A stretch of DNA of 64,000 nucleotides, taken from positions 186,001 through 250,000 of the forward strand of contig NW_024882187.1 of NCBI RefSeq assembly GCF_019059575.1, read 5' to 3'. Of this stretch, positions 7,831-35,721 are shown piece by piece (within the stretch, counting starts at the first letter, position 1; each line of letters opens with the position of its first letter). A model generated the notes under the pieces. It saw only the letters and a program-made list of their open reading frames with translations, ran no database searches and was not told where the DNA came from. The position numbers and the translations under genes are program-made. The stretch is from Amphibalanus amphitrite. Taxonomy: Eukaryota > Arthropoda > Thecostraca > Balanomorpha > Balanidae.

Positions 7831-7831
7831 T

Positions 7832-7912
7832 GGTAGGCTCTGCTACTCGCGGCGCGCGCGAAGCTCGAATCCCGTCTGTCTGTCTGTCTGTCTGTCTGTC
7901 TGTGTGTCTGTG
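7832..7912. repeat. Degenerate copy of the OGDH exon-donor junction plus (CTGT)n
   Basis: About 42 bp at 7832-7875 resemble the true exon-donor junction at 7921-7965 (shared GTAGGCTC, TACTC and GGCG on the plus strand) at roughly three-quarters identity. In the copy the donor reads GC in place of GT. A CTGT microsatellite separates the two copies. This is a weak form of the junction duplication seen in the other genes. Confidence 0.5.
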
Positions 7913-7940
7913 TGTTACAGGGTTAGGCTCCGGTACTCAC

Positions 7941-8165: not shown

Positions 8166-8193
8166 CACCGCTGTGGGAGCCGCGCCAGAGCAC

Positions 8194-12049: not shown

Positions 12050-12058
12050 CTAGATGAA

Positions 12059-15025: not shown

Positions 15026-15285
15026 AAACCTACAAGATTCTTACCAACAAGTTAGATATCGACCCCACGAAGCTGTTCAAACTACAAGATAACACAAGGA
15101 CCAGGGGACACCACTTGAAGCTGGAGAAAAAGAGAGCAGCCCATCACTTCAGAGCCAAGTTTTTCTCGAATAGAGTCGTTACGCCTTGGAATGAGCTCCC
15201 TGATCATGTTGTTTCTGCGCCTTCTACAAATGCCTTCAAGAACAGACTCGACCGACACTGGGCTACCACCTGCCATTCCTAGTCA
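15026..15285 (+). pseudogene. LINE-A 3' remainder (ORF2 C-terminus)
   Basis: In one frame this reads ETYKILTNKLDIDP, then FRAKFFSNRVVTPWNELP and FKNRLDRHW before a stop at 15283. That is the normal end of a CR1/L2 ORF2 and continues LINE-A, which breaks off after RAARGDL near 11510. Further on, the LINE-A tail shows (AACCTT)4 at 15374-15398, a different 3' microsatellite from LINE-B. Confidence 0.85.
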
Positions 15286-15399
15286 TCAATCCTACATATG
15301 TCTACTGTTGATCCTTCTATGTACCATCCTACCGGACATGAGCACCAAATAGACCAAGTCTAACCTAGCTCATCAACCTTAACCTTAACCTTAACCTTA

Positions 15400-17315
15400 T
15401 CTTAATAACCACTCACCAGATTATATGCAAAATATGTTAAGCTCCCCGCGGTTTTCACGCAAACTCCATCCAACCCAACACCTCCACCACCGAATCGAAG
15501 AAATCGAGCGCCCCAAACGCCCCAAATCTCTCGCCCTGCGAACGGCTGTGAAATACATTCAAGGCCGATGCAATTGCTCGGATACTGCCTAGCTTCCAAA
15601 CATGCTGATTGACATCATTGCCCAAAAAATTAGTTTTGTTTATGTGTTTGAGCATTTCGACTACTGAAAAATAACAGAAAAAATTCAATCAAGAAAAATA
15701 GAAATGAAACTCTTTTTTTTAGCAGAAATTGCAGCATTATTTTACAACTGACGTCATTTATCTTTAAAAATATTTGGTCAAATATGGCGCAAGAAAAAAT
15801 TAAGCAGGCATGTTCTAAAATATCGTTTATGGTGTTCATGTTAGTGAGTGATGCAAATTATATCTATAAACTTAGTAAGATGAAGCTTGAAAATTACGAT
15901 TGAAGGAATATGTGATTATTACCTGATATCACAAAGTGGGAGATACAAAGTTTTTAATTTAAAAAAATACAAATTCAAGAAATATCAAATTACAACTCCC
16001 GAATAAGGAAGAACTTGCACTACTTTTACAGACTGCCGTTGATTAGCTGTCATATCCAGAGCAGATTTGTAAATATAGTTTTTGAACACCTATAATTCTA
16101 AGCATTGGAAATTTCAAAAGAGGCGCGTGCAAGGCGGTTATTTCTTATACGTATACGTATCTTGGCGGTTAAATAGTCTATTTCGTGTGATCAGTTATTT
16201 TATTGGTCTTATTGCTTTAAGGTAAGTTTTATTGTCATTCTTCGTATTGCTACTATCGTCTATCTGTGCCACATTACATGAACAGCTAAAGAAGATGAAG
16301 GAATTGATAGTAGGTACCTAAACAGACAGGGAAACAAGGCCAAGACTGAAGAACTTGAACTTGGTATTGGTTGAAAGTGAAGCCTGAAGGTACCTATTTA
16401 GGTAGGCAGGTACCTGAAGACATCTCATAACATTTTATTTCATACGAGGTACCTGAAACATTTCATACCTGAACAGATGAAATGTTTGTGTCACCGCTGT
16501 TAAGTTCTGCTCGGCTGCCTTGTTCAGTGGTAGGCGCGCGACCACCACTCTCCCCGATCGGCTAGGGCGGGGTTTCTGACCGCGTCCTGGACAGATGGCA
16601 CCACTTCCTTCAGCACAGGCACCCACGCGAGGCCTATGAGAAGGGCTGGCCTTCCCTCTTGGCTCTTACTGAGGCTGGCGCGTTTGTTGTTGAGATGCCA
16701 TGTGGGCACGGCAGATTCCCAATCAAGGAACCATGGTCTCAGCGAACAGTGTCTTGAGCTCCGGTCTTCGACACATCCAGAATGTCATGCTTCTCAAAGG
16801 TTGCCCGATCCCTATGTGTATGGCTATGCACTACCATATGTCCTCTGACGCAGCTGCGGCCATTGTGTGCCGCTCAATAGCACCTTTATAGCATCTGTGA
16901 GCTTATGCCTGCTCCTTCCCTGATCGATCGAGCCGGGCGCCGAGACGAGACATCTTGCTGCGTCTCACTCGGCCGTTAGGCCCGCTGGCCGGGCTCGGAG
17001 TCGATGAGACACCCCCTCAGCCATGCGTCACGTAGAGCCCGTGTGGGAGCAGCGTGACACGGCGTCCACCGCGAGCTTATTGTCTCTGTATTCGGGAACC
17101 CCTTCGTCGTGGACTGTATTGTCCGTTGGGCGCATAACGGCTCTGCTGCTGACGCATCCCAGAACTAACAAACAGCAGAACTCCACCGACCCACTGAAAA
17201 CGTGGCCCCACACCCGTCGCCTGCACTTAATAGTCAATACCCCTGAGCTGATCGACTCGGATCCGTTGTATAGGCATCAACAGATGTATTTATGTGTAGT
17301 CTTAGAATAATTTTG
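15400..17315. other. Unassigned sequence upstream of RAP1
   Basis: No gene is recognised. The first kilobase is AT-rich, and GTACCT words recur at 16310-16460. GC content rises from 16500 to 17240, where a promoter or non-coding first exon of RAP1 could lie, but I see no decisive signal. Confidence 0.4.
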
Positions 17316-17442
17316 ACAGCGCTGTGGATACTGACCCCCTGTGTCCCTCAGCGCTGTGGATACTGAGACTGACTGACCCCCTGTGTCCTTCAGCGCTGTG
17401 GATACTGAGTACTGACCCCCTGTGTCTCTCAGCTCTGCGGCG
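17316..17442 (+). repeat. Three-copy array of a splice acceptor 5' of the RAP1 start
   Basis: A unit of about 35-50 bp containing CCCCCTGTGTCC, TCAG and CGCTGTGGATACTGA is repeated three times. Each has a pyrimidine tract plus CAG, and the last CAG is only ten bases before the RAP1 ATG. The start-codon exon therefore probably has an upstream 5' UTR intron whose acceptor has been copied twice. Confidence 0.75.
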
Positions 17443-20400
17443 ATGGTGCCGCCCTCGCGGCTCTCGCAGCTGTTTGTGCGGCCGGACGATGCCGAGCCGA
17501 TGGAGTTCCACCTGCTGGCGGGCCTGCCGCGCCCGGAGCGCTGCCGGCTGCAGGCGCTGGTGGAGGACCACGGCGGCGCGCTGGTGGCCAACCCGGCGCG
17601 CTGTCCGCACGCAGTCACTCTGGGCGCCGGCACGCCGGGATCGCAGCCGCGGCCGGCCGTCTCCGACCGGCCCGACACCTTCAGCACCCAGTGAGTGAGA
17701 GGAGGGGCGGGAGGGGCCCTCAGCACCCAGTGAGTGAGAGGAGGGGTGGGAGGGGCCCTCAGCAGTCAGAGAGTTAGAGGAGGGACGGGAGGGGCCCTCA
17801 GCAGTCAGAGAGTTAGAGGGACGGGAGGGACCCTCAGCAGCTAGTGAGTGAGAGGAGGGGCGGGAGGGGCCCTCAGCACCCAGTGAGTTGGAGGAGGGAC
17901 GGGAGTGACCCTCAGCAGCCAGTGAGTGGAGCAGGGCCCTCAGCAGGCAGTGAGTTGGAGGAGGGGCCCTCAGCACCCAGTGAGTGGAGCAGGGACCTTC
18001 AGCAGCCAGTGAGTGAGAGGAGGGACTGTAGCCATGTACTTCTGCCGGTCACCGCTAGGCCCATGTACTTCTGCCGGTCGCCGCTAGATGCTGTGAACCA
18101 CGAGTTACAGTTTTGTTAATAGATGTCGCTTTTACCAGTCTCTAAATTGCTAAAGCCTTCGATTAAGTTGTGCGTCCCCCTTTTAACGTTCCGTTCGCTT
18201 AAACTGCTGTATTGTTTGGACAACTGCATTGGCTATGTGTATATTAAAAACCATATGTATTCGTTTATTACATTCGATGTTCTCGCCAACATGTGTGCAA
18301 TACTAGATAAGTAAGTTCGTATGTAAAATTATATATGTCTCGATTTTGTGGCGAAATACAAGAGATATCTGTATGTTACAGTGTTTCTACTGGCTACACC
18401 AGCCAGATTGGTGACCCCGCGTTCTACGCACCATGGGATCGCTATCCCCTCGTGTTCCCAGACACACCGACACTGGCCTGCACCCTGAGCTATCTCCTCC
18501 AGCTCTCTTTGTGTAGGAAGGAAGTGGCGGATGGTGTGTCTCCACGAGGATCCTTCTATTGTGCTGTGTGGAACTGGACAACGCCGACTACTACTGCTGC
18601 ACTACGGACCAGCTACTTCATCGGCTCATCTTACCGAACGGCTACCTCTGCAGCTGCACCGCAGCACCTGCCGATCGCCGGATCGCCGTCGCCGCCACCG
18701 ATCTTCCCGACCATTGCTCTCGGCAGCCATGGACCAGAAGACCCAGCCTGCCGGCGCCGGTGCAGCCGCCGGAGCCGGTGCAGCCGCCGCCGCCGCCACG
18801 CATGCCGCTGCTGCTGCTGCTGCCGCTGCCGCCCAACCGGACTACCTCCGCGTGGCGACCGCGCCACGCAGCCACGTCGCGCCGCCGCGCTTCTTCGAGG
18901 AGGACCCCGTGATCTGGCTCGTCCAGCTCGACCTCTTCTTCTCTCAGGCAGCTGTGGACGATGAGCTCAGCCGCTTCCGGATCGCCGCTACTCTCCTTCC
19001 TGGCCACCTCCTGCGCGACTTCACCGACATCCTCCGCAACCCTCCTCTAGACCGACCTTACAGCATCCTTTCCGACGCCATCCGTCAGCGGTTCGGCAAA
19101 TCAGTCGAACAGCGTCTTCGCTGCCTGCTCTCTGGCCAACAACTCGGCGACAGGCGTCCTTCCCAATTCCTTCGGCATCTCCTGGACCTTGCTGAAGCTG
19201 AAGGCTCACAAGATTCCCCGCTCATCCGCCAGATCTTCCTCAATGCTCTTCCGCCTCGGACTCAGCCCTTCCTCCAGTGCCTGCCGCCTGGGACGGACCT
19301 TGCGACCATCGCTAGCACTGCCGACCGACTCCTGGAGCTTCCGCAGCAGTCGGACGTCGCTGCACCTACCTCAGGCCTTCTCGCCGCGGTATCGACTTCT
19401 GCGTCTGCTGCAGCCTCACCTGCTGCTCCTGCAGGACCCTTCCACCTCCAAGACCTGATGAGCCAGCTGCTGACTGGTATCACGGCCCTCACAACATCAG
19501 TCGCCACACTGGTGGACGAGACGCGCCGCCGAGAGAGGTCTGCATCCCGTGCCCCCGGCCGCGCTCGCCACCGTCCACCACGCGACCTGTCTGCTGCTGC
19601 CCGGTCACCCAGCCCTGCAACCAACACGTCTACCGGCGCTGGTGCTTCCTTCTGCTGGTACCACCACAAGTTCGGTACCAACGCGCGCTCATGTCAGTCA
19701 CCGTGCTCGTGGTCTACAACCGCAACTCAGACCTCGGGAAACCAGCAGTAGGACAGGTGACACAGACGTCTGCACCTGCCCTGCTCAACCCTGACGTCCC
19801 TCCAGCAAGCGGCCTTCTGAGACTCAAGGACAACAACACTGGTATCACCTTCCTCATCGACACTGGAGCCGAGTACAGTGTTCTTCCAGCGACACCCACC
19901 GATCGTGCTCGCGGAACCAACGGACTGGATCTGCAAGCAGCCAACAACAGCAGCATCCAGACCTATGGTCAGCGCATGCTCACGCTTTCTCTCGGCCTCA
20001 GAAGAGATTTCAACTGGATCTTCATCATCGCGGACGTCTCCCATCCTCTCCTAGGAGCCGACTTCCTCTCCTCGTATGATCTCCTCGTCGACACCAAGAG
20101 AGGCCGTCTCATCGACCACCTAACTGAGTTGTCTTCACCTGCTTCCCACTCTTCAGTGCCATCCACCGGACTGACAGCCGTCGTCGGAACCGACAACCCA
20201 ACATTCCTTAACCTCCTTCGAGAATTCCCCAGCCTCACCCAGCCGTCACATCACCCGGAGCCACAGCACTCAGTCCGACATCACATCGAGACTACCGGCC
20301 CTCCGGTCTTCTGCCGCCCACGCCGTCTGGATCCAGCTCGACTCGCCACTGCCAAGGCAGAGTTCCAGCGCCTTCTCAGTCTCGGAGTCATCCGACCCAG

Positions 20401-23400
20401 CAGCAGTCGGTATGCATCACCGCTGCACATGGTGCCCAAGTCGTCTGGAGATTGGAGACCCTGTGGTGATTACCGTGCACTTAACCGCATCACAGTGCCT
20501 GACCGGTACCCACTACCACATCTTCACGACTTCACTGCCTGCCTCGCTGGGACATCGATCTACTCTCGGCTCGACCTCGTCAGGGCCTTCAACCAGATAC
20601 CGATGGCCCCAGAAGACATCGCCAAGACAGCGATCACAACGCCCTTCGGCGCCTTCGAGTTCCTCCGTATGCCGTACGGTCTCCGGAACTGCGCTCAGAC
20701 CTTCCAAAGGTTCATGGATCACATCCTCCGTGGCCTGGACTTCGCCTTCGTCTATGTAGACGACATCCTCATCGCCAGCAGCAGCATCTCGGAACATCTC
20801 ACACACCTCCGAGAGGTCTTCAGCCGTCTTTCCCGCAACGGTGTGCTCCTCAACCCATCGAAGTGCGCCTTCGGCATGGAAAGCATCTCCTACCTCGGCC
20901 ACCAGATCTCCAGCGGAGGCATCACTCCTCTCGATGATCGAGTCAGCGCGATCAAGAACTTCGACCGTCCAGAGTCAAAGAAGAGCCTCAAGAAGTTCCT
21001 GGGGATGATCAACTTCTACCACCGCTTCATCCCACACGCTGCTGCTCTTCTGGCACCTCTCCACGGCCTGACTGCCTCAGACGACCGAGCTGCTTCAGTC
21101 ACGTGGACCCCAGAGGCAGACGCCGCCTTCTCTGCAGCCAAAGCCGCCCTCGCTGACGTCACCCAGCTCGCTCATCCCGTCAAAGATGCAGCTCTGAGCC
21201 TCAGCACTGACGCCAGCAGCACAGCAGCCGGCGCCGTGCTCCACCAGCGAGTTGGTGGTTCTCTTCAGCCTCTCGCCTTCTTCTCGCGCAAGTTCACGCC
21301 CACCCAACGCCGCTACAGCACCTTTGGACGGGAATTACTCGCCATGTACCTCGCCGTGCGACATTTCCTGCCCTATCTGGAAGGATGCGACTTCGAGATC
21401 CTCACGGACCACAAGCCGCTCGTCTTTGCTCTCAAGGCCAACGGCAACGCCAACCATTCTCTCCGTGAACAACGTCACATGGACCTGATTCTGCAGCACA
21501 CCAGCAAGATCGGACATGTTCCTGGACACCTCAACCCGGTAGCTGACGCCATCTCACGGATCAGCTCAGTGTCTGCGCCAGCTTCTGCCGCAGCTACACC
21601 TTCACCCGGCCTTCTGAGCCTGGCCGACATCGCCCTACACCAAGCCAACGATCCTGACCTGCCGAAGCTGCAACAATCCTCATCTCTGATCATCCGTGAC
21701 TTCCCAGTCCCTGATCATCCGCATCTACGTCTCTGGTGCGACACCTCAACGGCCACACCTAGACCTGTAGTCCCAGCCAGACTCCGCCCTTCCATCATCA
21801 AGAGCTTCCACGACTTGTCTCATCCTGGCATCAACGCTACGTGTCATCTCATCTCATCGAGGTTCATCTGGCCCCACATCAACGCGGACATCCGTGCCTT
21901 CGTCCGGAGCTGCCAGCACTGCCAGCGTGCCAAGATCCAGCGCCACACGAAGCCACCCATGGGCAGCTTCCAGCCACCTGACTCTCGCTTCCTGCACATC
22001 CACATCGACCTTGTCGGACCACTTCCTCCGTCCCATGGCAACTCCTATCTCCTGACTGTCGTCGACCGCTTCACCCGATGGCCCGAGGCAATTCCTCTGC
22101 CCACCATGGACGCCGTCACGGTGGCTCGGCATCTCGTCAGCGGCTGGATCGCCCGCTTCGGAGTACCCGAACTCATCACCACCGACAGAGGATCCCAGTT
22201 CGAGTCCCGCCTCTGGACAGAAGTCTCCAAGCTTCTCGGCACCTCTCGGATCCGGACCTGCGCCTACCACCCAGAAGCAAACGGGATGGTAGAGCGCTTC
22301 CACCGCCAACTGAAGTCAGCTCTGCGGACCGATGACGACGCCGCCTCCTGGTCGGACCGACTTCCTCTGGTGCTACTCGGAGTGCGCACGGCCCTCAAGG
22401 AGGATCTCGGATGCACCGCTGCAGACCTAGTCTATGGTTGCAGTCTTCGACTTCCTGGTGACTTCCTCTCCCCCATGTCGTCGGACACTTCTTCTGATCC
22501 GGCTTCCCTAGCCTCTCGTCTCCGCGCTGCCATGTCGGAGCTCCGTCCAACTCCTCCTCGTCCTGGCTCCCGCCAAATCTTCATCTCTCAAGACATGCAA
22601 ACCTGCTCCCACATCTTCATCCGACGCGATTCGCATCGCTCTCCTTTCCAATACGTCTATGACGGTCCTTATCGTGTCCTATCCCGCGACCAGCACACCG
22701 TCACCATCGACCGTCTCGGGCGACGCGACACCGTCACCCTGGCTCGGTGTAAACCGGCCTTCACGGACAACATGCCTGCCGCAACGCCGCCTGCAGCACC
22801 GGACGTCCTGGTGAACGACACGCCTACTACAGCGACAGACAGCTCGGTGGACCGCCCGCCTGCTGCATCGCCTGCACCCAGCCGCTCAGGTGCCCCCGGC
22901 GGCTCTCACCCGGCTCGCCGCGTGCCGCCGGACCCGCCGCCTGCTTCGCCGCCCCCTCTCCGTCGTTCGTCGCGTCTTCGCCGCCAAACATCTTTTTATG
23001 GTGTTTAACTAGGGCGGGGGAGTGATGTAGCCATGTACTTCTGCCGGTCACCGCTAGGCCCATGTACTTCTGCCGGTCGCCGCTAGATGCTGTGAACCAC
23101 GAGTTACAGTTTTGTTAATAGATGTCGCTTTTACCAGTCTCTAAATTGCTAAAGCCTTCGATTAAGTTGTGCGTCCCCCTTTTAACGTTCCGTTCGCTTA
23201 AACTGCTGTATTGTTTGGACAACTGCATTGGCTATGTGTATATTAAAAACCATATGTATTCGTTTATTACATTCGATGTTCTCGCCAACATGTGTGCAAT
23301 ACTAGATAAGTAAGTTCGTATGTAAAATTATATATGTCTCGATTTTGTGGCGAAATACAAGAGATATCTGTATGTTACAGTGTTTCTACTGGCTACACCA

Positions 23401-26400
23401 GCCAGAGGACACTCAGCAGCCATTGGGTTAGAGGAGGGACAGGAAGGACCCTCAGCACCCAGTGAGTTGGAGGAGGGACGGGAGGGACCCTCAGCAGTCA
23501 TTGGGTTAGAGGAGGGACGGGAGGGGCCCTCAGCGCCAGTGAGTGAAGGAGGGACACTCAACAGCCATTGGGTTAGAGGAGGGATGGGAGGGGCCCTCAG
23601 CGCCAGTGAGTGAAGGAGGGACGGGGAGGGAGGGACTGATCCTTCAGCAGGCCGGGCGCCGAGCCGCTCTGTGTCCGGTCTGTGTGTCCGTTCCCTGTGT
23701 GCTGAGCCTGTCTGTCTGTGTGCCCGGGCAGGTTCCTGGACGAGTGTGTGCGCCGCGGCCGGGTGGTGAGCCTGTGCCCGTTCCCTGTGTGCTGAGCCTG
23801 TCTGTGTGCCCGGGCAGGTTCCTGGACGAGGTGTGCGCCGCGGCCGGGTGGTGAGCCTGTGCCCGTTCCCTGTGTGCTGAGCCTGTCTGTCTGTGTGCCC
23901 GGACAGGTTCCTGGACGAGTGTGTGCGCCGCGGCCGGGTGGTGAGCCTGTGCCCGCTCCCTGTGTGCTGAGCCTGTCTGTGTGCCCGGGCAGGTTCCTGG
24001 ACGAGTGTGTGCGCCGCGGCCGGGTGGTGAGTCTGTGCCCGTTCCGGCTGCAGCCCACCTCGCTGTACAGCCGGCCGGGCCAGGTGAACGCCGTGCTGCT
24101 GGGACGCTGCGCCCGCTCCGACCTGGCCGTGGTGACGGCGCTGCCCGACTCCGACTCGGACGACGAGCTGCGGCTGCTGACGGCCGCCGGGGAGCCGGGC
24201 CGCGGCGCCGCGCCCTACCGCGGCCGGCTCCGCTTCAGCCGCGAGAAGGACGAGGCGCTGGTGCGCTTCGTGGCCGAGCACGGCTGCCAGCGCTACGCGC
24301 CGCCGACGGCGCCCAAGTTCTGGCACCTGAAGGCGTTCCTGCTGCCGGCGCTGCTGGCCGACCATCCGCCACTGTCGCTGCACACCCACTTCATCAAACA
24401 GGTGGGACGGGTGCACGGCGGTAACACTGCCGGAACGCTAGGTGTGGGGCAGATGGACAGCAGAAATACCATGAGAGTGGGGCAGGCTGTGACCAGTCAT
24501 GGGAGCTGAATGCTGATAGCCCAAAGGGATTCTTTATTAACCCGGGATAAGGGACCGCCGCTTCTGTAAGGCTTTTGCTGCAGCGACTCTATGTTACCCG
24601 ATGTGTGTGTGTGTGGTGTGCTGGTGATCTGACGCGGCCGCTCTCTGACCCGGTTCCGACGGCGGCGTCTCGGGCGCTCGGCAGGTGAGGCCGCGGCTGG
24701 CCGACTTCAAGTCGACGGTGCCGGTGCACCTGGTGGCGCGGGCGGCCGAAGCCACGGCCACGCGTCTGGCGCTCACTGAGGACGAGCGGCGTGCCGTGGA
24801 GCAGCGCGAGCGGGACGACAGCCGGCAGCGGCAGCGGCGGCTCCGGCAGCGGCCCAGCTCCGCCGGCGACTCCGACACCAGCGCCGACGACCTGCTCTGC
24901 GTCACCGACTCGGAGAGCGAGCCGGGCCGCGCCACCGCCGCCCCGGCCGACACTCCCGCCGGCTCCGAAGCCGCTTCTGCCGCTGAAACGGCCGCTGTGA
25001 GCACGGTGCTGGAGACGGCCCCCAGTGCTGAGGGTGCTGAACTGGAGACTGCCCCCAGTGCTGAAGGTGCTGAACTGGAGATATCCCCCAGTGCCGAGGG
25101 TGCTGAACTGGAGACGGCCCCCAGTGCCGAGGGTGCTGACCTGGAGACGGCCCCCAGTTCTGAGGGTGCTGAACTGGAGACGGCCCCCAGTGCCGAGGGT
25201 GCTGAACTGGAGACGGCCCCCAGTGCTGAGGGTGCTGAACTGGAGACGGCCCCCAGTTCTGAGGGTGCTGAACTGGAGACGGCCCCCAGTGCCGAGGGTG
25301 CTGAACTGGAGACGGCCCCCAGTGCCGAGGGTGCTGAACTGGAGATGGCCCCCAGTGTCGAGGGTGCTGACCTGGAGACGGCCCCCTGTGCCGAGGGTGC
25401 TGAACTGGAGACGGCCCCCAGTGCCGAGGGTGCTGAACTGGAGACGGCCCCCAGTGCCGAGGGTGCTGAACTGGAGATGGCCCCCAGTGTCGAGGGTGCT
25501 GACCTGGAGACGGCCCCCTGTGCCGAGGGTGCTGACCTGGAGACGGTCTCCAGTGCCGAGGGTGCTGAGCTGGAGACGGCCCCCGGTGCTGAGGGTGCTG
25601 AGCCGGCCGCCGAGGGCGCTGATTTGACGACAGCCCCGGCCGCGTTAGGTGACGAGTCGGACTTTGTCCCGCCGACCAGCCCATCGGAGTGCTCGTCTTG
25701 TGGCGACAGCGATGAGACGGTACGTATCCCGGCAGCCGTGCAGCAGGTTATGGCGGCGCGCTGGAGCGGCGGCGCCGCGCGGCCCTCCTATTCGCCGATA
25801 CTGTCGCGCCACACCAGGCGCCGCCGCCGGCCGCCAGCCGCCGGAGCCGCCGCTGGGAGCCCGCAGCTCTCCCCGGAGCTGGCCCCGGAGCCGGAGCCGG
25901 AGCCGGCGCTCGGCGACTCCCGGCGCTCCCTCTCGCCGGCGTTCCAGTCGGCGTTGTCCGATTCAGACGCAGCCGGGCCGAGCCACGCGGCGGACGCACA
26001 GCGGACAGACACCACGCGCCGGCTGCGCAGCTTCCGAATGCGCCGCCGGGCGGGTGAGGGCGGCTCCCCGCGCGCCGCCCGCCGACCGGAGCCCGGCGGA
26101 GAGCCGACGGCAGGCTCCCCCAGCCGGCGGGCGCGCGACGCGGGCCGCCGGGGCCGCCGGCTCTACAGCCACCCGCCGCTGCCGGAGGAGTACCCGGAGC
26201 GCGCGGCCGCCGGGCGCCGGCTGCGCTCGGCCAGTGGCTCAGGGAGCTCGGCGTCGAGCTCGGACGACTTCCAGCCGCCGCCCAGGAAGGCGACACGGCT
26301 GGACGGCGAGCGGTCTGCCCAGCCCGGCCCGTCCGGCCTGAGACCGGCGCGGAGAAGTCGCCGGCTGAGCTCCTCCGACAGCGCCGCCAGCCCGGACCCG

Positions 26401-27231
26401 GCGCGGCGTTCACGCCGACTGGGCTCCTCCGACAGCGCCGCCAGCCCGGACCCGGCGCGAAGTCGCCGGCTGAGCTCCTCCGACGGCGCCGCCAGCCCGG
26501 ACCCGTCTCGGAGAAGTCGCCGGCCGAGCTCCCCCGACAGCGCTGCCAGCCCGGACCCGTCTCGGCCGGCGCGGAGAAGTCGCCGGCTGAGCTCCTCCGA
26601 CGGCGCCGCCAGCCCGGACCCGTCTCGGCCGGCGCGGAGAAGTCGCCGGCTGAGCTCCTCCGATTACGGCGGCGACGCTGATTCGTCTGCGCGGTCGCGG
26701 CGCGAGCGGCAGGCGTACTCGTGGGCCGAGGAGGAGGTGCTGCTGCGCCGGGTGCTGGCCGAGCAGGCGGCCGGCGGCCTGCTGGGCGGCCGACGCGTCT
26801 GGGAGCGGCTGCAGGACAGCGGCGTGCTGCCGGGCCGCTCCTGGCAGTCCCTGAAGGAGCACTGGCGCCGGATGGCGCCGCGGCTCCGCAACAGCGCCCG
26901 GCTGACCGAGAGCCAGCGGCGCCAGCTGTGCCGCGCGCTGCGCCGGCCGGCCGGGCCGGGCCGCCGCGGCGCGCCGGCGCGGCCCTACACGCGCGCCGAG
27001 GACCTGGCCATGCTGCGGTACCTGCAGGAGGAGCCGCGCCGCGCGCTCGGCGTCTCGGGCCGCGCGCTGTGGCAGGAGATGGCCGCGGCGCTGGCCAGGC
27101 CCGGCCGGCCCACCAGGAGCTGGCAGTCTTTGAAAGAGCGCTTCCACAAGCGGATCGCGCCGGCGCTCCGCGAGTACCGGGAGGTGGACAGCGCCTTCCG
27201 CCGCTCCCTGGCCGACCGGCTGTGCCTGTGA
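17443..27231 (+). CDS. Terf2ip: RAP1 (TERF2-interacting telomeric protein 1) orthologue, three coding exons
   Basis: Exons 17443-17690, 23993-24401 and 24685-27231 join in frame to 1067 codons. RAP1 binds TRF-type proteins at telomeres. Residues 8-105 form a BRCT domain ([20 protein letters not shown] across the first junction, as in vertebrate RAP1). A degenerate Myb follows at 160-230 ([16 protein letters not shown]). Acidic 11-residue repeats ([11 protein letters not shown]) fill about 328-528, and Arg/Ser repeats ([14 protein letters not shown]) fill 775-878. Two clear RAP1-type Myb domains lie at 895-955 and 985-1050, each with SWQSLKE. The vertebrate protein is about 400 residues with one Myb and a C-terminal RCT; here the protein ends soon after the last Myb (SLADRLCL), so an RCT is not visible. 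Intron 1 holds a gypsy element. The unusual length is mostly due to minisatellite expansion. Confidence 0.88.
17684..18026 (+). repeat. RAP1 exon 1 end + donor array, left part (about 10 copies)
   Basis: The unit of about 30-39 bp starts CAGCACCCAGTGAGTGAGAG. It consists of the last seven bases of exon 1 plus the donor GTGAGT and intron bases. The first copy is the real junction (donor at 17691). Several copies keep CCCAGTGAGT intact. The gypsy element is inserted at the end of this part, and the array continues at 23411. Confidence 0.92.
18023..18026 (+). other. Target-site duplication GGAC (left)
   Basis: GGAC precedes the left LTR and recurs after the right LTR at 23407-23410. Removing the element restores the phase of the surrounding array unit. 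Confidence 0.8.
18027..18407 (+). repeat. 5' LTR
   Basis: Begins TGTAGCCATG and ends GGCTACACCAGCCAGA. It is identical to 23026-23406. The short inverted ends TGTAGCC/GGCTACA lie nine bases inside the right border. The right border is set by shared sequence and by the GGAC duplication. Confidence 0.92.
18409..18421 (+). promoter_or_regulatory. Primer-binding site of the gypsy element
   Basis: TGGTGACCCCGCG starts one base after the LTR. A TGG start next to the LTR is typical of a tRNA 3' end complement. I cannot name the tRNA with certainty. Confidence 0.75.
18729..19751 (+). CDS. gag: Gypsy element Gag polyprotein
   Basis: 340 codons from ATG 18729 (context CAGCCATGG), chosen because the upstream part of the open frame is arginine/leucine-rich leader-like sequence and this is the first ATG in good context. 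Residues 5-40 are an alanine-rich tract. The capsid-like core follows ([36 protein letters not shown]). The C-terminus has CWYHHKFG and [10 protein letters not shown], a short Cys/His motif instead of a standard CCHC knuckle. The frame ends TAG at 19749-19751, nine bases after the start of the slippery codon pair, so Pol is made by frameshifting. Confidence 0.9.
19736..19742 (+). promoter_or_regulatory. -1 ribosomal frameshift site GGGAAAC
   Basis: The heptamer lies in the Gag frame as G GGA AAC, the canonical X XXY YYZ form, seven bases upstream of the Gag stop. Slipping back one base there enters the Pol frame exactly (Pol continues GKPAVGQ). No downstream pseudoknot was modelled. Confidence 0.85.
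19739..23008 (+). CDS. pol: Gypsy element Pol: protease, reverse transcriptase, RNase H, integrase
   Basis: The Pol frame is open from 19691 and overlaps gag by about 60 bases in the -1 frame; translation probably enters at the slip site. Residue numbers count from 19691. Protease DTGAEYS lies at about 56. RT has a [15 protein letters not shown] motif and the active site YVDDILI at about 354. RNase H begins near [12 protein letters not shown] (about 505), with a conserved [17 protein letters not shown]. Integrase has an HHCC zinc site from about 703 and the catalytic Asp-Asp-Glu triad in [16 protein letters not shown] and VERFHRQ. The tail is proline-rich. All catalytic residues I can identify are present, so the element looks competent. 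Confidence 0.93.
23010..23025 (+). promoter_or_regulatory. Polypurine tract
   Basis: The purine-rich AGGGCGGGGGAGTGA lies directly before the 3' LTR and overlaps nothing else. This is the usual plus-strand primer position. Confidence 0.8.
23026..23406 (+). repeat. 3' LTR
   Basis: Base-for-base identical to the 5' LTR over 381 bp. It is followed by the target duplication GGAC at 23407-23410. Confidence 0.92.
23411..23640 (+). repeat. RAP1 exon 1 end + donor array, right part (about 6 copies)
   Basis: Continuation of the array interrupted by the gypsy element. Units carry CTCAGCACCCAGTGAGTTGG or the variant CTCAGCAGCCATTGGGTTAG plus GAGGAGGGAC. Most of these copies have weakened donors (GTGAGTTG, TTGGGTT). 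Confidence 0.9.
23680..23992 (+). repeat. RAP1 exon 2 acceptor + exon start array (3 extra copies)
   Basis: A unit of about 86 bp contains TGTGTGCCCGGGCAG, the first 50 or so exon 2 bases (GTTCCTGGACGAGTGTGTGC, CGCGGCCGGGTG) and GTGAGCCTGTGCCCGT. The extra copies have intact AG acceptors ending at 23731, 23817 and 23906. The last acceptor, at 23992, leads into the full exon 2. One extra copy carries a one-base change in GACGAGGTGTGC that alters the frame. Each copy also carries a GTGAGC donor-like site about 35 bases inside, so each could in principle be used as a micro-exon. Confidence 0.92.
25010..25612 (+). repeat. Coding 33-bp minisatellite in RAP1 exon 3
   Basis: About 18 units of 33 bp encoding [15 protein letters not shown] 11-mers, all in frame. 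The variants are mainly Ser/Cys, Ala/Val and Glu/Asp changes. It adds about 200 acidic residues between Myb 1 and the C-terminal Myb pair. Confidence 0.95.
26350..26660 (+). repeat. Coding Arg/Ser minisatellite in RAP1 exon 3
   Basis: About six imperfect units of 45-66 bp (codons in whole numbers) encoding [17 protein letters not shown]. This is a basic, phosphorylation-prone linker just before the C-terminal Myb pair. Confidence 0.92.
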
Positions 27232-28305
27232 CGGCCGCGCACTTTTTATCGGTTCGTGCGTGCAGTGGGTGTGTGTCTGCATGCTCGTGTGGTTGGCTGT
27301 GATCATCGCATCGCCTGTTTGGTAGGTACGACACGTTGGGGGTAACGCCGCGCGCTCATGAGCTTTTGTTTTCACGGCCTACGATCGACTGAAAAGTCAG
27401 TGTACAAAACTTTGTATAGTGCACAGCCAAGATATATCTTAATACAATAATTTTCGTATACTTCTGGTTTGGGATGAGATGCTTCTAAAAATGGCCATGG
27501 ATGTTTGCGAAATGTGATATTTGTGAGGTGTTTCACGGCACGCTGCTAGCATACGTGGCAAATTCGGTTTCCATGAAGACATCAACAACCTCGTAGTTCC
27601 CTCACTACCACAACCTGTGACGTTGGCTCGCGAAGTGCGCTGGCAGCGCCGGTGAAAAACGGATAACGACTCTGACTTTGAAGAGTAGCGTCAAGGGGAT
27701 GAAGGCGAACTATGCGGAAACCCGTCTGCAGGCGTGCGCGGGCCAGAGAATAGGTATGTGTGTATGTATGCGTGTATGTATGGCCTATGGGTTACATAGC
27801 CTTGATATGTATGTACGGTATGTACCAATACCGTGAATTCGAATAAAAGGGTGCAGTACTTTATGACAGCGTACTTTTTCTTCTAATTCATAACCTGATT
27901 TTCAATGGACGTAAATTTGACTAATTTCAACACTAGAAAGTGATTATCAATGACGTCAATTCAAATGAACACAATTTTTTGCTAAAACGCAATTTCCTGG
28001 TTAAATGATACGTTTGGCATCTTAAAATTGATCTGTTTTTTTTTTTTGCAGTTACATTTTTCGAAGCTGCACATAAGCTCTTAAGAAATTAGCATCATTT
28101 ACATAGAATCATTAGTATCTCACTGCCAATGAAATGATTGTAAGAAAATGACGTAATAAGCCCAAGAGATTTCTTTCCAGAATATTGCGCTATCAAATAA
28201 CATTTGGTTGTGGAAAACGTGACCGTGTATTACGTTTATTTCTTTTGGTGCTGGCGTTTGCCTGATGTGGTGACAATTACTACAGATTTATGAAAATAAC
28301 CTAAA
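27232..28305 (+). other. RAP1 3' region and TIM23 upstream region
   Basis: No gene is seen. An AATAAA at 27842-27847, about 610 bases after the RAP1 stop, could be its polyadenylation signal. A TGTATG-rich tract lies at 27750-27830. The remainder up to the TIM23 ATG is AT-rich and must contain the TIM23 promoter, but no TATA or initiator stands out. Confidence 0.45.
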
Positions 28306-31300
28306 ATGGCAATGGAATCTAAACAAGGAGGCATTCGCGGGATGTTTAACCCTTATTCTTCGGCTGATCCCTCTGTAAATGTCCCAGGTAAGTTGATAAA
28401 TGCTTGATGGCCCATGGGTCATGGGTGTCGTTTTGTCATTTGTGTAGGCTGGTTAGGGGCTGATTCCTACCAATAATTTCATAATTTAAACATAATAATT
28501 TATGGCATTGTGTGGTAAGAATGGCACTGGTATCCTAAGATTAACTATCAGAGCTGGAGCCCTGCCAATAATTTTTGGAAAGTGACGCCCGTGTATAAAT
28601 GGGATGACCGTGAAAACAGGGCGCCCTGGGCGATTTGATCAAAGCTCTTGAAATTCACTTGCACAAACCACATGACAATCACTGTGTAGAAGGCATTGGG
28701 AGGGGGAGAACTTCTCATTAGTCACGTGATTCCATTTCATCTACATATAGCCACTGTAGTGCATAAGGCCGGTGGACTGTGTCACAATTTTAAAAAGGCT
28801 ACAGTTTGTCGATCACCCGCATTCATGTTGTTCCTTCTCAGGACGCATGTAAGGCCTGTGCTTGAGTATGCGTCTTGTCTGTGGTACACCGAATATGCTG
28901 AGGATGTGCGTAAACTAGAAAGGGTACAGCGCAGATGGACAAAACACATTGAAGGGATGCATGACATGACTTATGCGGAGAGGCTGAAGGAACTTGACCT
29001 TTTCTCTGTGCAAGGCCGACTAATTCGCGCCGATCTGATACAGTACTGGAAGATTTTCCATGGGAAGAGCACAATAACCCCTGAGGACATTTTCCATCAG
29101 CCTCCCCGAGGTGGAACTCGTGGTCACTGCTTCAAGCTGCATGTAGCACGTGCTGTTTCGAACGTGCGGCAGCGCTCGTTTTCGCATCGTCGGGTGGCTA
29201 TCTGGAATAGTTTGCCAGAGGCCGTGGTGGCCGCTTCAGATCTGTCGTCTTTCAAACGACTTCTCGCACAGGCACTAGGTAACACATTGTACGACTACAT
29301 CTGACTCGCGATATTTGTGCAAACATACCGATAAGTGTTGTTTTCCAATGGCATATGCCACGAGGACACACACTTTCCAGTCATCTGGCCATATCTACAG
29401 GACATCATCGTGGGGAGACTGTGACTGGCGTGTCCTGATCCTATCCGGGTTCCTCCTGCTCCAGTCCTTACTACCGGCTGCGAAGCAGAAGGAGCCCCAC
29501 CAGGTAAGAGTACCAGGTAAGAGTAAGAGTGACCAAATATGCTCTCCGGCGCCCCGTTTTCACTGGTGTCCTATAAATAATAGGTAACCATTGATTAAAA
29601 CAGATAGGTACCTGTTATGGACATGTGTGCTATAAATATTCCTTTTATTATTCCTTTTATAACTGTACAAAACATGTCATTTTCAGTTCAGGCAAAGTTT
29701 GTTTTTTAGCAGTTTGGCTCCAAGTCAAATTTTGTATGCATCACTTGCTTGTCATTGTTGTTTCAGCTTTAGCCAGCCACAAATGCTGAACTGTGAACTG
29801 AGCCTGATATTGTTGCCTGACCTGGTGCCTGATTTTACATTGCATTAGTCCAGATGATTCTGATCTGTAAAGCAGAAGGCCATAGCTGAAAAGATGAATT
29901 GGTATCTATCTTGGTTTGGTATATTACATCTTGCATCATCAGCATCTTGGTTGGTATAGTTATCTTGTTATCTTATTAAGTTCAAAATCACTGCTGGCTG
30001 AATGTGCTGTATGAGCACAATGGTTTTCTCTGCAGAAGTCATATTCCAGTTTGCTGCTACTTTTTTATCAGAGCAGTGTTGACTGCTGACTGATCACTGG
30101 TGACTGCTGACTGTTTGACTGAATAATCAGCACAGCGGTGTGTTCTGTGTTTCAGTGGCATCATCACCAGGCCTGTCACAAATCTCTCCGTACCTGAACT
30201 TTGACCCGTCGTACCTGGGCACCACACAGCCAGAGTTCATCTTCCCAGAGGGAGCCGCCAAACAGAGGGGTCGCTTTGAGGTCGCCTTCTCTCAGATTGG
30301 AGGTGAGCCCACCTCTGTGACAGACCCCACCTCTGTGACAGGTCCCCTAGCTGTGTGACAGCTCCCATCTCTGTGTGACAGACCCCACCTCTGTGTGACA
30401 GCTCCCACCTCTGTGTGACAGACCCCATCTCTGTGTGACAGACCCCACCCCTGTGTGACAGCTGCCACCTCTGTGTGACAGACCCCACCTCTGTGACAGA
30501 CCCCACCTCTGTGACAGACCCTACCTGTGTGACACCTGCCACCTCTGTGTGACAGCTCTGCACCTCTCTGACAGACCCCACCTCTGTGTGATGGACCCCA
30601 CCTCTGTGTGATGGACCCCACCTCTCTGACAGACCCCTCCTCTGTGATGGACCCCACCTCTGTGTGACAGACCGTACCTGTGTGATAGGCCCCTTACCTG
30701 AAAAGTGTGAAGTTTTGAGGTGACATTATCACAGATCACATCAAATAACTATGCCATGTGCTGTAACTTTTGTGGCGTCTGTCCAGCTGAATCAGTTTCA
30801 CGAGTGGGAGGATCTCACAGTGACTCCACAACCCGATCTGCCCCTCAGACCGTGATACGACGGGGAGACTATGGTATGATCTCCCCCTGAGACCGTGACA
30901 CGACGGAGAGACCATGGTATGATCCAGTATGATCCCCCTGAGACCGTGATACGACGGGGAGACCATGGTATGATCCGGTATGATCCCCCTGAGACCGTGA
31001 TACGACGGGGAGACCATGGTATGATCTCCCCCTGAGACCGTGACACGACGGAGAGACCATGGTATGATCTCCCCCTGAGACTGTGATACGACGGGGAGAC
31101 CATGGTATGATCTCCCCCTGAGACTGTGATACGACGGGGAGACCATGGTATGATCTCCCCCTGAGACTGTGATACGACGGGGAGACCATGGTATGATCTC
31201 CCCCTGAGACCGTGGTACGACGGGGAGACCATGGTATGATCTCCCCCAGACCGTGACACGGAGCTGCTCTGACCGCCCTGTGTCCACAGGCGGCTGTCTG

Positions 31301-34300
31301 GGCGGAGGCGTCTACGGAGGCGCCATCGGCCTGTTCAACGGCCTGCGGGACACCCAGCTGGCTGGTCACACGGGCGCCGTACGGAGAACACAGTGAGTGG
31401 TCACACGGGCGCCGTGCGGAGAACACATTGAGTGGTCACACGGGCGGAGAACACAGTGAGTGGTCACACGGGCGGAGAACACAGTGAGTGGTCACACGGG
31501 CGGAGAACACAGTGAGTGGTCACACGGGCGGAGAACACAGTGAGTGGTCACACGGGCGGAGAACACAGTGAGTGGTCACACGGGCGCCGTACGGAGAACA
31601 CAGTGAGTGGTCACACGGGCGCCGTGCGGAGAACACAGTGAGTGGTCACACGGGCGCCGTGCGGAGAACACAGTGAGTGGTCACACAGGCGCCGTACGGA
31701 GAACACAGTGAGTAGCCACACGGGCACCGTGCGGAGAACACAGTGGGTGGTACTGGTCACACGGGCGGAGAACACAGTGAGTGGTACGTCACACGGGCGG
31801 AGAACACAGTGAGTGGTACGTCACACGGGCGGAGAACACAGTGAGTGGTCACACGGGCGGAGAACACAGTGAGTGGTCACACGGGCGGAGAACACAGTGA
31901 GTGGTCACACGGGCGCCGTGCGGAGAACACAGTGAGTGGTCACACGGGCACCGTGCGGAGAACACAGTGGGTGGTACTGGTCACACGGGCGGAGAACACA
32001 GTGAGTGGTCACACGGGCGGAGAACACAGTGAGTGGTCACACGGGCGGAGAACACAGTGAGTGGTCACACGGGCACCGTGCGGAGAACACAGTGAGTGGT
32101 CACACGGGCGGAGAACACAGTGAGTGGTCACACGGGCGGAGAACACAGTGAGTGGTCACACGGGCACCGTGCGGAGAACACAGTGGGTGGTCACACGGGC
32201 GGAGAACACAGTGAGTGGTCACACGGGCGGAGAACACAGTGAGTGGTCACACGGGCACCGTGCGGAGAACACAGTGAGTGGTCACACGGGCGGAGAACAC
32301 AGTGAGTGGTCACACGGGCGGAGAACACAGTGAGTGGTCACACGGGCACCGTGCGGAGAACACAGTGGGTGGTCACACGGGCGGAGAACACAGTGAGTGG
32401 TCACACGGGCGGAGAACACAGTGAGTGGTCACACGGGCGCCGTGCGGAGAACACAGTGAGTGGTACTGGTCACACGGGCGGAGAACACAGTGAGTGGTCA
32501 CACGGGCGGAGAACACAGTGAGTGGTCACATGGGCGCCGTGCGGAGAACACAGTGAGTGGTCACACGGGCGCCGTGCGGAGAACACAGTGAGTGGCCGTG
32601 CCGTCGGTGTTCAGGGGCAGCTCGCCGCCGGGGGGCCGCTGGGGATCCCGGGACGGCGCCGGGCGCAGTGGAGTTCGGTCGGACGGCACAGACCCTCCCC
32701 TGGTCTGCCGCCCGGTCACCTTCCCGTGGTCTGCCGCCACAGACCCCGCAGTCTGCCGCCCGGCCTCCTGCAGCACAGACCCCGCAGTCTGCCGCCCGGC
32801 CTCCTACAGCACAGACCCCGCAGTCTGCCGCCACAGACCCCGCAGTCTGCCGCCCGGCCTCCTACAGCACAGACCCCGCTGTCTGCCGCCACAGACCCCG
32901 CAGTCTGCCGGCCGGCCACCTACATCCCCTCGGCCTCCCCTCCCCTCCCGCAGTTTGCCGCTCTGTCACCTATATCCCCTCCCTTCCCGCAGTCTGCCGC
33001 CACAGACCCCGCAGTCTGCCGGCCGGCCTCCTACATCCCCTCCGCTCCCGCAGTTTGCCGCTCCATCCAGGTGGCGCCGCCTGTCCCACGGATAGCAGCT
33101 GATCGGTTCTATCCAGAAAATACACCGGCACACGCGCTCATTGGCTACCAGACCGTCACTGACCTGCGCCGCCTTCTAAACGGTTATAAAAGGCTCCAAG
33201 TAATGTCAGGCGTGGTACGGACTGGATGAGGTGTCACAGTGTGGGACAGACGTCTCTGTATCCGTACGTGACCTCTGAGGGCTAAATCTGTACTCACTAT
33301 TAGTGCGAAATTCCGGAGAATTTCCCTGTTTCGTTCAATATCGAAACCGTGAGCGGTTTTTGAGTCATGTTAAAACGGGCAAAACTTATAGCACCAGTGC
33401 ACTTGTCTAAATAGTAAATACTCTGGTTATTTTCATGCAAAATATTATTATACCAGCTTTATTGAAGCGTGGATTGTGGGCTTGCGCGTCTTTGGAGTTT
33501 TTGCGAGAAACTTTGTCGCACTGACCCTTGTCGGCAGTTTGTTTCTCGCAGTCTGACAGAAGCTCTGTCGTCTGTCGCTGATGTGTCGGTGATTTCTTGT
33601 TTGTGATGTGTGGATGATTTTTCGGTGATTGGTCAGGTATCGCCGATGTGTCCGGTGCCAGTGATTCGTCGGTGACCTGCCAATGTGTCGGTGACCTGTC
33701 AATGTGTCGGTGACCTGCCAATGTGTCGGTGACCTGCCAATGTGTCGGTGATGTGTCGGTGAGCTGCCAATGTGTCAGTGATTCGTCGGTGAGCTGTCAA
33801 TGCGTCGTTGAGCTGTTAATGTGTTAGTGATTCGTCGTTTGTTGGTGATGTGTTGGTGATTCGTCGGTGTGTCTGTGTTTCGGTGATGTAGCGGTGACCT
33901 GTCAGTGTGTCGGTGACCTGTTATTGTGTCGGTGACTTGTTATTGTGTCGGTGACCTGCTATTGTGTCGGTGACCTGTTATTGTTTCGGTGACCTGTTAT
34001 TGTTTCGGTGACCTGTTATTGTGTCGGTGACCTGTTATTGTTTCGGTGACCTGTTATTGTTTCGGTAATGTGTCGGTGGTGTGTCGGTGACCTGTTATTG
34101 TGTCGGTGACCTGTTATTGTTTCGGTGATGTGTCGGTGACGTATCAGTGTCTCTGCGCCGCCGCCAGGATGATCAACTACGTGATGAAGCGCGGCGCCGC
34201 CTCTGCCAACACGGTGGGCGTCATGGCCGTCATGTACTTCTCGTTCGGCGTGCTGCTGGGATGGGCGCGCGGCACCGACGACGAGCTGAACACGCTGACT

Positions 34301-35721
34301 GCTGGCACCGCCACCGGGCTGCTCTACAAGTCCTCCGGTGAGGGGGGGGGGAGGGACACTGGGCTGCTCTACAAGTCCTCCGGTGAGCGGGGGGGGGGGA
34401 CACCGCCACCGGGCTGCTCTACAAGTCCTCCGGTGAGGGGGGAGGACACCGGGCTGCTCTACAAGTCCTCCGGTGAGGGGGGGGGGGGCACCGCCACCGG
34501 GCTGCTCTACAAGTCCTCCGGTGAGGGGGGGGGGGCACCGCCACCGGGCTGCTCTACAAGTCCTCCGGTGAGGGGAAAAGAGAGAGGTCGGCAGGCAGAA
34601 AGAGTGGAGGATAAGTGTCGGGAAGAGGATTAAGTTAGCGAGAATAGCTGGAGTACCATGCTCCAAGTATTGTGCTCGTGTGTCCAATCCATGGCTGGAA
34701 TCGCGTTCTTATTTCCATGTTTTCCGCGTCAGGCGAGCGCGGTGCGGTTGACTTGTGTCGTATGAGGGGTGGTGGTTCAGAGACTACGGAATCTGGTCAC
34801 CCCGCACAGTCTAATCAGTCCGGTCACGCACATACACTGCCTGCCTGACATGAGAGAACGCCAGGCCGGGCAGCCGGAGGGCGGATACCAAGAGCATGTC
34901 TTTTATTTAATTTTAAACCCACATTGAATACACTTTGCACCTGGCGTTCATTTAAGAACGTTACATATTTTTCTCGTGGTATAAAACGTACTGGTAGTTT
35001 CTCCCAGTCACCATAACGCCAAGTTCAGGCGACCTCGGCCCAGGTCCACCTCTGACCTCTGACCCTTACCCCGGGCCCTGACTCTGCCTCTGACCTTTGA
35101 CCTGTGACCTCTGACCTGTGACCCCTGTCTGCGCCCACAGCCGGCGCCAAGCGGTGTGTGATGGGCGGCGGAGTGACCTCTGACCTGTGACCCCTGTCTG
35201 CGCCCACAGCCGGCGCCAAGCGGTGTCTGATGCGCGGCGGAGTGACCTCTGACCTCTGACCCCTGTGTCCGCCCACGGCCGGCGCCAAGCGGTGTCTGAT
35301 GGGCGGCGGAGTGACCTCTGACCTCTGACCCCTGTGTCCGCCCACAGCCGGCGCCAAGCGGTGTCTGATGGGCGGTGGAGTGACCCCTGACCTGTGACCT
35401 CTGACCTGTGACCTGTGACCCCTGTGTCCGCCCACAGCCGGCGCCAAGCGGTGTGTGATGGGCGGCGGTCTGACCTGTGACCTCTGACCTCTGACCTGTG
35501 ACCCCTGTGTCCGCCCCACAGCCGGCGCCAAGCGGTGTCTGATGGGCGGCGGCGTGACCCCTGACCTCTGACCTGTGACCTCTGACCTGTGACCCCTGTG
35601 TCCGCCCACAGCCGGCGCCAAGCGGTGTCTGATGGGCGGCGGCGTGGGCCTGGCGCTGGCGGCCGCCTACTGTCTGGCCACCTCGCGGGACCGGCTGCAG
35701 AGCCTGCGCACCTACAGCTAG
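28306..35721 (+). CDS. Timm23: TIM23, mitochondrial inner-membrane presequence translocase channel subunit, five exons
   Basis: Exons 28306-28387, 30156-30302, 31290-31392, 34168-34337 and 35612-35721 sum to 612 nt: 203 codons plus TAG (vertebrate TIM23 about 209 residues). All introns are GT-AG and every junction keeps frame. TIM23 imports presequence proteins across the inner membrane. Visible family marks are the SPYLNFDPSYLG segment facing the intermembrane space, then FIFPEGA and RGRFEVAFSQIGG before the first membrane helix (glycine-rich, GGCLGGGVYGGAIGLFNGLR). A second helix follows (ANTVGVMAVMYFSFGVLLGW), then DDELNTLTAGTATGLLYKSSG and a last glycine-rich helix ending with LRTYS. All introns except intron 1 contain tandem arrays, three built from exon-junction sequence. 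Confidence 0.94.
28388..28695 (+). other. TIM23 intron 1, 5' part
   Basis: Unique-looking intron sequence after the GTAAGT donor; nothing else is seen. Confidence 0.5.
28696..29304 (+). pseudogene. 5'-truncated CR1/L2-like LINE fragment in TIM23 intron 1
   Basis: An open frame of about 200 codons encoding the C-terminal region of a LINE ORF2: THVRPVLEYAS, LERVQRRWTKHI, YAERLKELDL, RRVAIWNSLPEAVV and SFKRLL. The polymerase core and endonuclease are absent. It lies in the sense direction of the intron. The same architecture appears in the LINEs at 11126-15285, but the sequence is distinct. Confidence 0.85.
29305..30155 (+). other. TIM23 intron 1, 3' part
   Basis: AT-rich intron sequence ending TGTTCTGTGTTTCAG, a good acceptor. 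Nothing else is recognised. Confidence 0.5.
30305..30690 (+). repeat. 21-bp minisatellite in TIM23 intron 2
   Basis: About 18 units built from CCCACCTCTGTGTGACAGAC, starting two bases after the exon 2 donor. Some units vary as TGTGATGGACCCCA. Unlike the later arrays, it copies intron bases and no exon. Confidence 0.9.
30855..31256 (+). repeat. About 45-bp minisatellite in TIM23 intron 2
   Basis: Eight or nine units containing CCCTGAGACCGTGATACGAC and GGGGAGACCATGGTATGATC. It ends about 30 bases before the exon 3 acceptor. Confidence 0.92.
31364..32600 (+). repeat. TIM23 exon 3 end + donor array, about 38 copies
   Basis: The basic 35-bp unit is the last 29 bases of exon 3 (GGTCACACGGGCGCCGTACG, then GAGAACACA) followed by the donor GTGAGT. 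A 28-bp variant lacks GCCGTGC. Nearly every copy keeps CAGTGAGT; a few read CAGTGGGT or CATTGAGT. The first copy is the real exon end (donor at 31393). In the TIM23 frame the first donor is read as CAG TGA, so using any later donor would put a stop right after the normal exon end. Confidence 0.95.
32690..33070 (+). repeat. GC-rich minisatellite in TIM23 intron 3
   Basis: Interleaved units based on CAGACCCCGCAGTCTGCCGC and CGGCCTCCTACA with varying lengths. It begins about 90 bases after the exon 3 donor array. Confidence 0.85.
33071..33579 (+). other. TIM23 intron 3, non-repetitive part
   Basis: No gene or repeat seen; GC content falls from 33240 onward. Confidence 0.5.
33580..34140 (+). repeat. 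GTGTCGGTGACCTG minisatellite in TIM23 intron 3
   Basis: Irregular 18-22 bp units, GTGTCGGTGACCTGTTATT and the variant with CCAAT, with intermixed GTGATGTGTCGGTGA. It ends about 28 bases before the exon 4 acceptor. Confidence 0.9.
34312..34572 (+). repeat. TIM23 exon 4 end + donor array, 6 copies
   Basis: The unit contains GGGCTGCTCTACAAGTCCTC, CG and then GTGAGGGG with a variable G-run. It is the last 20-30 bases of exon 4 plus the donor. The first copy is the real junction (donor at 34338); all six keep CCGGTGAG. Extending the exon into the array stays open for about 100 codons, so use of later donors would give a longer, mostly frame-shifted protein and no immediate stop. Confidence 0.93.
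34573..35085 (+). other. TIM23 intron 4, non-repetitive part
   Basis: No gene seen. Ordinary intron sequence between the donor array and the acceptor array. Confidence 0.5.
35086..35640 (+). repeat. TIM23 exon 5 acceptor + exon start array, 7 copies
   Basis: Units of 68-90 bp contain the pyrimidine-rich CTGTGACCCCTGTGTCCGCC, the acceptor CACAG and the first 30 or so bases of exon 5 (CCGGCGCCAAGCGGTGTCTG, ATGGGCGGCGG). Exon-like starts follow AG at 35141, 35210, 35348, 35438, 35522 and 35612. The third copy has ACGG in place of ACAG and is dead. Only the last runs into the complete exon. Splicing to an earlier acceptor would read a short alternative C-terminus ending within the next unit. Confidence 0.95.

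Follow-up and report, generated by a model that had tools for sequence, protein, structure and literature searches.

Why should tandem repeats sit on splice junctions? This question is raised by a 64,000-nucleotide stretch of the genome of the barnacle Amphibalanus amphitrite (contig NW_024882187.1, positions 186,001 to 250,000, forward strand; hereafter the window), in which a sequence-only reading had described repeat arrays at six exon borders of two neighbouring genes, RAP1 and TIM23, together with a decayed trace of another at a third gene, OGDH. Our results support a model in which these arrays are probably exon-intron boundary minisatellites of the kind known as 'mirages' in amphioxus, which arise by tandem duplication, are tolerated, and are then remodelled by unequal exchange.

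In RAP1 and TIM23, arrays at five intron borders have a unit that consists of an exon end plus its donor, or an acceptor plus the exon start, and every unit is contiguous, unspliced exon and intron DNA. The largest array, at the TIM23 exon 3 donor (31364-32595; coordinates are window positions, and all RAP1 and TIM23 features lie on the plus strand), holds 39 junction copies, a count that, like the others given for these two genes, includes the real junction. Its units are mostly of 28 and 35 bp, with a 91-bp higher order, and 34 of the 39 donors read GTGAGT, four GTGGGT and one TTGAGT. Six copies of 40-50 bp are found at the TIM23 exon 4 donor (34304-34575), and seven of 69-91 bp at the TIM23 exon 5 acceptor (35104-35646), where the real site is the last and one copy lacks AG. 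The RAP1 exon 1 donor has 16 copies in all, five of them without GT, in a first part of ten units of 28-39 bp (17681-18026) and a second part of six units (23407-23640). Between the two parts, inside the array, lies a long terminal repeat (LTR) retroelement (18027-23406) with LTRs identical across 381 bp and a 4-bp target duplication, GGAC; it is heterozygous, the second haplotype having an empty site. Minus this element, RAP1 intron 1 measures 918 bp, of which about 94% is array, as calculated from the coordinates. Finally, the RAP1 exon 2 acceptor carries four copies of 86-89 bp (23683-24045), again with the real one last. Five of the six arrays claimed for these genes are thus confirmed. 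Although the sixth, at the RAP1 5' acceptor, also exists (17335-17437; three copies of 39-42 bp), the exon start there is putative, and it is a plausible sixth border-crossing case.

In the TIM23 exon 3 array, the repeated exon end codes for residues (GHTG, for example) that are common to all ten aligned proteins. Because the repeated end encodes conserved residues, exon 3 must have preceded its array, and the array was derived from the exon. As for which copy is used, hypothetical splicing at the surplus RAP1 and TIM23 sites would break the protein in 56 of 59 cases, a test that for RAP1 exon 1 took in seven of 15 surplus sites; the three sites that keep the frame open are all TIM23 exon 4 donors (three of the five there). 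Since surplus sites mostly break the protein, the outermost copy should be the one used, which for TIM23 means donor copy 1 of 39 at exon 3 and acceptor copy 7 of 7 at exon 5; exon definition would select this copy. The earlier statement that the real junction always lies beside the intact exon fits both frame and protein conservation, although it is partly true by definition.

Frequency of junction copies at exon borders

OGDH lies to the left of RAP1 on the opposite strand and was modelled, first exon excluded, with 22 exons and 21 introns. The model is based on solved chain 8i0k, which was used in place of E. coli SucA because the latter produced spurious first exons as a reference. The 42 OGDH borders counted here likewise exclude the first exon and include borders in poorly conserved parts of the gene. 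An OGDH exon with a likely start codon (8170-7941; its match has E 0.009, with 42% identity across 26 aa) is followed downstream by the decayed two-copy donor trace (together 7790-8170, minus strand), and the trace is borne out by an alignment score of 61, compared with a maximum of 25 among 300 shuffles.

We took the 22-nt word at each junction and searched directly for further copies of it in the adjoining intron, up to 4 kb from the border. In this word test, as in the second-haplotype placement test and the interior and breakpoint comparisons below, RAP1 and TIM23 counts come from the haplotype on contig C163 and OGDH counts from contig C690. An extra junction copy was found at 29 of the 54 borders of the three genes (OGDH 24 of 42, RAP1 2 of 4, TIM23 3 of 8), and the total was the same at ≤3, ≤4 and ≤5 mismatches. 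A swap control with the junction words of other genes gave 0, 0 and 2 of 7,876 at these thresholds. In eight CCT genes from other contigs, of which three were covered only piecewise, extra copies occurred at 2, 3 and 3 of 82 borders, a clear difference from the three-gene locus at ≤5 mismatches (Fisher P = 1e-11). Four introns that seemed mis-modelled, three in CCT7 and one in CCT8, are omitted from the CCT counts here and in the tests below; they were dropped after an earlier count was known, in which none of them had a border-crossing array. Four ATPase genes, also on other contigs (ATP synthase alpha, ATP synthase beta and two that look V-type by eye), had no extra copy at any of their 58 modelled borders, though a number of these borders are unreliable, above all in the V-type genes. 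The comparison of array edges with exon borders that the sequence-only reading had proposed for the whole genome, run here on a sample of genes, finds the three-gene locus dense but the rate in the sampled genes on other contigs low.

In a placement test, the unit of each array is first dropped at random into its intron, where it may cross a border, and is then expanded. Five of ten intron arrays in the window cross a border, compared with 2.0-2.4 expected (P = 0.009, or 0.033 at the loosest cut-off); without RAP1 intron 1 the result is three of eight, compared with 0.69 expected (P = 0.02), and a simple rate comparison for the window gives an expectation of 0.41 (P = 7e-5). The second-haplotype version of the test counted higher-order periods and excluded units >260 bp, and the 15.9-kb OGDH intron dominates the intron length that entered it. 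RAP1 and TIM23 alone then gave P = 0.067. For OGDH alone, in which tandem-repeat clusters cross 13-14 of the 42 borders, there were 14 crossings against 4.4 expected (P = 6e-7), and for six CCT genes there were two against 0.44 (P = 0.047). Across RAP1, TIM23, OGDH and the six CCT genes, 21 of 122 borders were crossed, compared with 7.6 expected (P = 2e-8). RAP1 and TIM23 by themselves are only suggestive, and it is neighbouring OGDH, which adjoins RAP1 and so is not an independent genomic sample, that makes the case for a border excess. With OGDH included, the placement and word tests uphold the claim that borders are hit more often than random minisatellites would hit them. The 15.9-kb intron itself, OGDH intron 8, contains long blocks of a 278-286-bp satellite (C690:159051-172211).

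A harsher test sets borders against present-day interior 22-mers: 29 of 54 borders have copies, compared with 325 of 1040 interior words, a number inflated by array growth (P = 0.0009). The same comparison for CCT gives 3 of 68 borders and 17 of 1320 interior words (P = 0.07). Because the locus is generally rich in arrays, with 31% of its interior 22-mers repeated versus 1.3% in CCT introns, region and border both matter. GC content at exon ends is similar, at 61-63% in the locus versus 59-64% in CCT, and locus introns are longer and slightly GC-richer. The border excess is real but looks strongly local, a hotspot with rare cases elsewhere and not a uniform genome-wide feature. Our guess is that the locus is so rich because new minisatellites arise at a high rate in this region.

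Origin and turnover of the arrays

The breakpoints of the units bear on how they arose. We surveyed 33 borders with copies at ≤6 of 22 mismatches, two of which are from CCT genes. In the nearest copy, which is found at a distance of 31-155 bp, the exon part measures 4-54 nt (median 29). Of 22 exons, 11 have the word at their border repeated in the adjoining intron, a number that falls to 0-1 for words 40 nt from the border. Given these scattered breakpoints and the decay of exon words, tandem duplications fit and insertion at the junction does not. The RAP1 exon 1 array is flanked on both ends by CCTTCAGCA, a short direct repeat recognized by eye. We propose that an array would start when DNA across a border is duplicated in tandem, with scattered breakpoints and often between short direct repeats on either side. 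It would survive through exon definition, by which splicing would keep to the site beside the intact exon while the surplus copy is discarded as part of the intron. The array would then be amplified and contracted by slippage or unequal exchange, and contraction might occasionally install a former surplus copy as the exon end, OGDH intron 14 being a candidate example.

Except for insertions, contig C163, the second haplotype, runs colinear with the window; the two are about 99% identical and encode identical RAP1 and TIM23 proteins. Insertions of about 4.7 kb and about 2.5 kb are seen on C163 only, and one of about 1.3 kb in the window only (window positions 14706, 15139-16418 and 27825). All six RAP1 and TIM23 arrays have equal copy counts on the two haplotypes; the TIM23 exon 3 array differs internally between them, and TIM23 intron 3 measures 2775 versus 2850 bp. 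OGDH border arrays are mostly of equal length on both haplotypes, OGDH introns 12 and 14 vary in length, and most other arrays have the same copy number.

OGDH intron 14 is informative in this respect, as the exon end and donor occur twice on C163, 76 bp apart, and once on C690. The OGDH haplotypes have 15 coding differences in 2,589 bases and identical proteins. Four of these 15 silent differences cluster in a 16-nt stretch of exon 14, and at all four the C690 variant is present on C163 in the surplus copy only. Because its four variants match the C163 surplus copy, the C690 exon 14 end looks like a contraction product, that is, a former decoy, and on these sequences it looks as though a decoy can take over as the true end of an exon. 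A less likely alternative is that the duplication occurred on C163 and that its exon copy, but not the surplus one, later acquired four silent changes. In a broader version of the idea, surplus copies would be a living reservoir: contraction or conversion would regularly swap decoys into the exon, exon ends would co-evolve with intronic copies, and the used junction would move through the array. We regard this version as possible but doubtful.

Duplications could instead start preferentially at borders through a mechanism linked to splicing or transcription, for example R-loops or nicks at exon ends. Such targeting would account for 21 crossings of 122 borders where random placement predicts 7.6, and for the excess of borders over interior 22-mers, inflated as the interior is by array growth (29 of 54 versus 325 of 1040, P = 0.0009). 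However, the breakpoints spread over 4-54 nt of exon, and the CCT and ATP synthase genes are also spliced yet almost array-free. Exon-like DNA may itself be more prone to duplication, as RAP1 exon 3 holds two in-frame arrays, and on balance we consider border targeting unlikely. It is less likely still that selection keeps surplus sites for splice-site redundancy or alternative splicing. GT or AG is retained in 187 of the 208 surplus copies at the 33 surveyed borders, and the three TIM23 exon 4 donors that leave the frame open (of five surplus ones) would suit such a role, but GT is absent from 5 of 16 RAP1 exon 1 copies and the protein is broken by 56 of the 59 surplus sites tested.

Long, near-identical units are difficult to assemble, and the arrays could in principle have been expanded by polymerase or consensus errors. 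We think this very improbable: the same arrays occur on the second haplotype, with equal copy numbers on two contigs that each have private differences, and array copies are distinguished by base changes. Of the two mechanisms that the sequence-only reading had suggested, slippage (or short-homology duplication) fits the edge repeats seen by eye at some arrays, whereas reinsertion of exon or intron ends after splicing is contradicted by units that hold an unspliced junction and by their scattered breakpoints; we found no support for reinsertion and give it next to no weight.

Nonetheless, several observations sit less comfortably with tolerated tandem duplication as the source of the arrays. 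The border excess exceeds what purely neutral placement would produce, and the case for short repeats comes from inspection of a few arrays, with the CCTTCAGCA repeats seen by eye. Use of the outer copy is argued from protein conservation and frame. The exchange at exon 14 is a single case, and the other 11 silent differences (exons 19-21) are without a counterpart in a surplus copy. Mismatches at the GT or AG of surplus copies (donors 4.4%, acceptors 5.6%) are fewer than at other positions (13.2% and 9.6%, both inflated by the outermost intron positions), which could hint at selection.

Gene models and other features of the window

TIM23 was placed by a gene model and a spliced aligner in five exons, at 28306-28387, 30156-30302, 31290-31392, 34168-34337 and 35612-35721, and its four introns were recovered identically by the aligner using shrimp and stick-insect TIM23. 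The protein translated from the window contains a Tim17/22/23 domain (Pfam) and is 100% identical to A. amphitrite entry P0002 across 87% of its own length; the P0002 N-terminus differs from the product of window exon 1, which resembles other arthropod proteins. TIM23 intron 1 contains a LINE-like insert (long interspersed nuclear element; 28730-29528) that is missing from haplotype C163, and near the end of this insert is a two-copy 13-bp repeat containing GGTAAGAGT.

The RAP1 model (1067 aa) is identical throughout to A. amphitrite protein P0121, which carries the name 'nucleolar protein dao-5-like'. Its coding exons are exon 1 (17443-17690), with a BRCT match below the Pfam cut-off, exon 2 (23993-24401) and exon 3 (24685-27231), with a Rap1 Myb domain above the cut-off. 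Exon 3 also contains in-frame coding minisatellites at 25009-25601 and 26344-26663, with a 33-bp unit in 18 copies and further periods of 54, 63 and 105 bp. Three RAP1-like A. amphitrite proteins (P0122, P0123 and P0125; 61-77% identity, 645-1039 aa) are possibly RAP1 paralogues or divergent alleles.

Elsewhere in the window, a 959-aa open frame at 12050-14929 resembles, by eye, a LINE endonuclease plus reverse transcriptase, and a 46-bp tandem array (26.8 copies, 96% matches) runs from 62777 up to the window end at 64000. No tRNAs were found in the window, and no RNA families at the gathering score.

Comparison with known systems

Ordinary intronic minisatellites have comparable unit sizes and higher-order units, and they also expand and contract. 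Unlike them, the barnacle unit takes in coding exon sequence and a splice site.

The repeated occurrence of such arrays in one locus had been thought undescribed, a view that does not hold for the arrays as such: exon-border arrays, or mirages, are described in amphioxus Adh3, globin and other genes in the available passages of PMC3087553, where an intron-gain model is proposed from them. This paper was the sole direct match of our literature search, in which no barnacle report of such arrays appeared among the matches listed. The same passages give mirage unit lengths of 10-72 and 150-160 bp, and somatic instability is reported for the Adh3 mirage. As far as these passages describe them, mirages resemble the barnacle arrays in joining an exon end to the adjacent intron (here in RAP1, TIM23 and OGDH), in bearing AG or GT signals in many copies (187 of the 208 surplus ones here) and in varying in array length, which in the barnacle is seen between haplotypes at TIM23 intron 3 and OGDH introns 12 and 14. 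Set against the same passages, our case differs in its host, a crustacean and not a cephalochordate, in having a retroelement inside one array and in the one instance in which an exon end equals the surplus copy of the other haplotype. It also extends to over half of the junctions of three neighbouring genes, with up to 39 copies, a contrast that draws its amphioxus per-gene density from the passages only.

The arrays also bear on intron gain. In the Rogers model, as cited in PMC3087553, an intron is gained when a segment that contains splice signals is duplicated in tandem, and cases of gain by duplication are reported for a potato RdRp gene (PMC4974935) and for Drosophila (PMC2891723). The barnacle tandem duplications likewise include splice signals; unlike the duplications in the model, they sit inside existing introns, and no new intron is seen with them. 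The locus lets the loss and gain of border duplications, a step that intron-gain models assume, be followed between haplotypes. It is also a natural test of spliceosome choice, with one of up to 39 near-identical donors, or the last of seven acceptors, to be selected.

In summary, exon-border arrays are not a peculiarity of amphioxus, and they can span most of a gene's junctions. Judged by the available passages on amphioxus, the barnacle arrays have the defining features of mirages that could be tested, and what they add is a new lineage, a high density and the exchange of an exon end.
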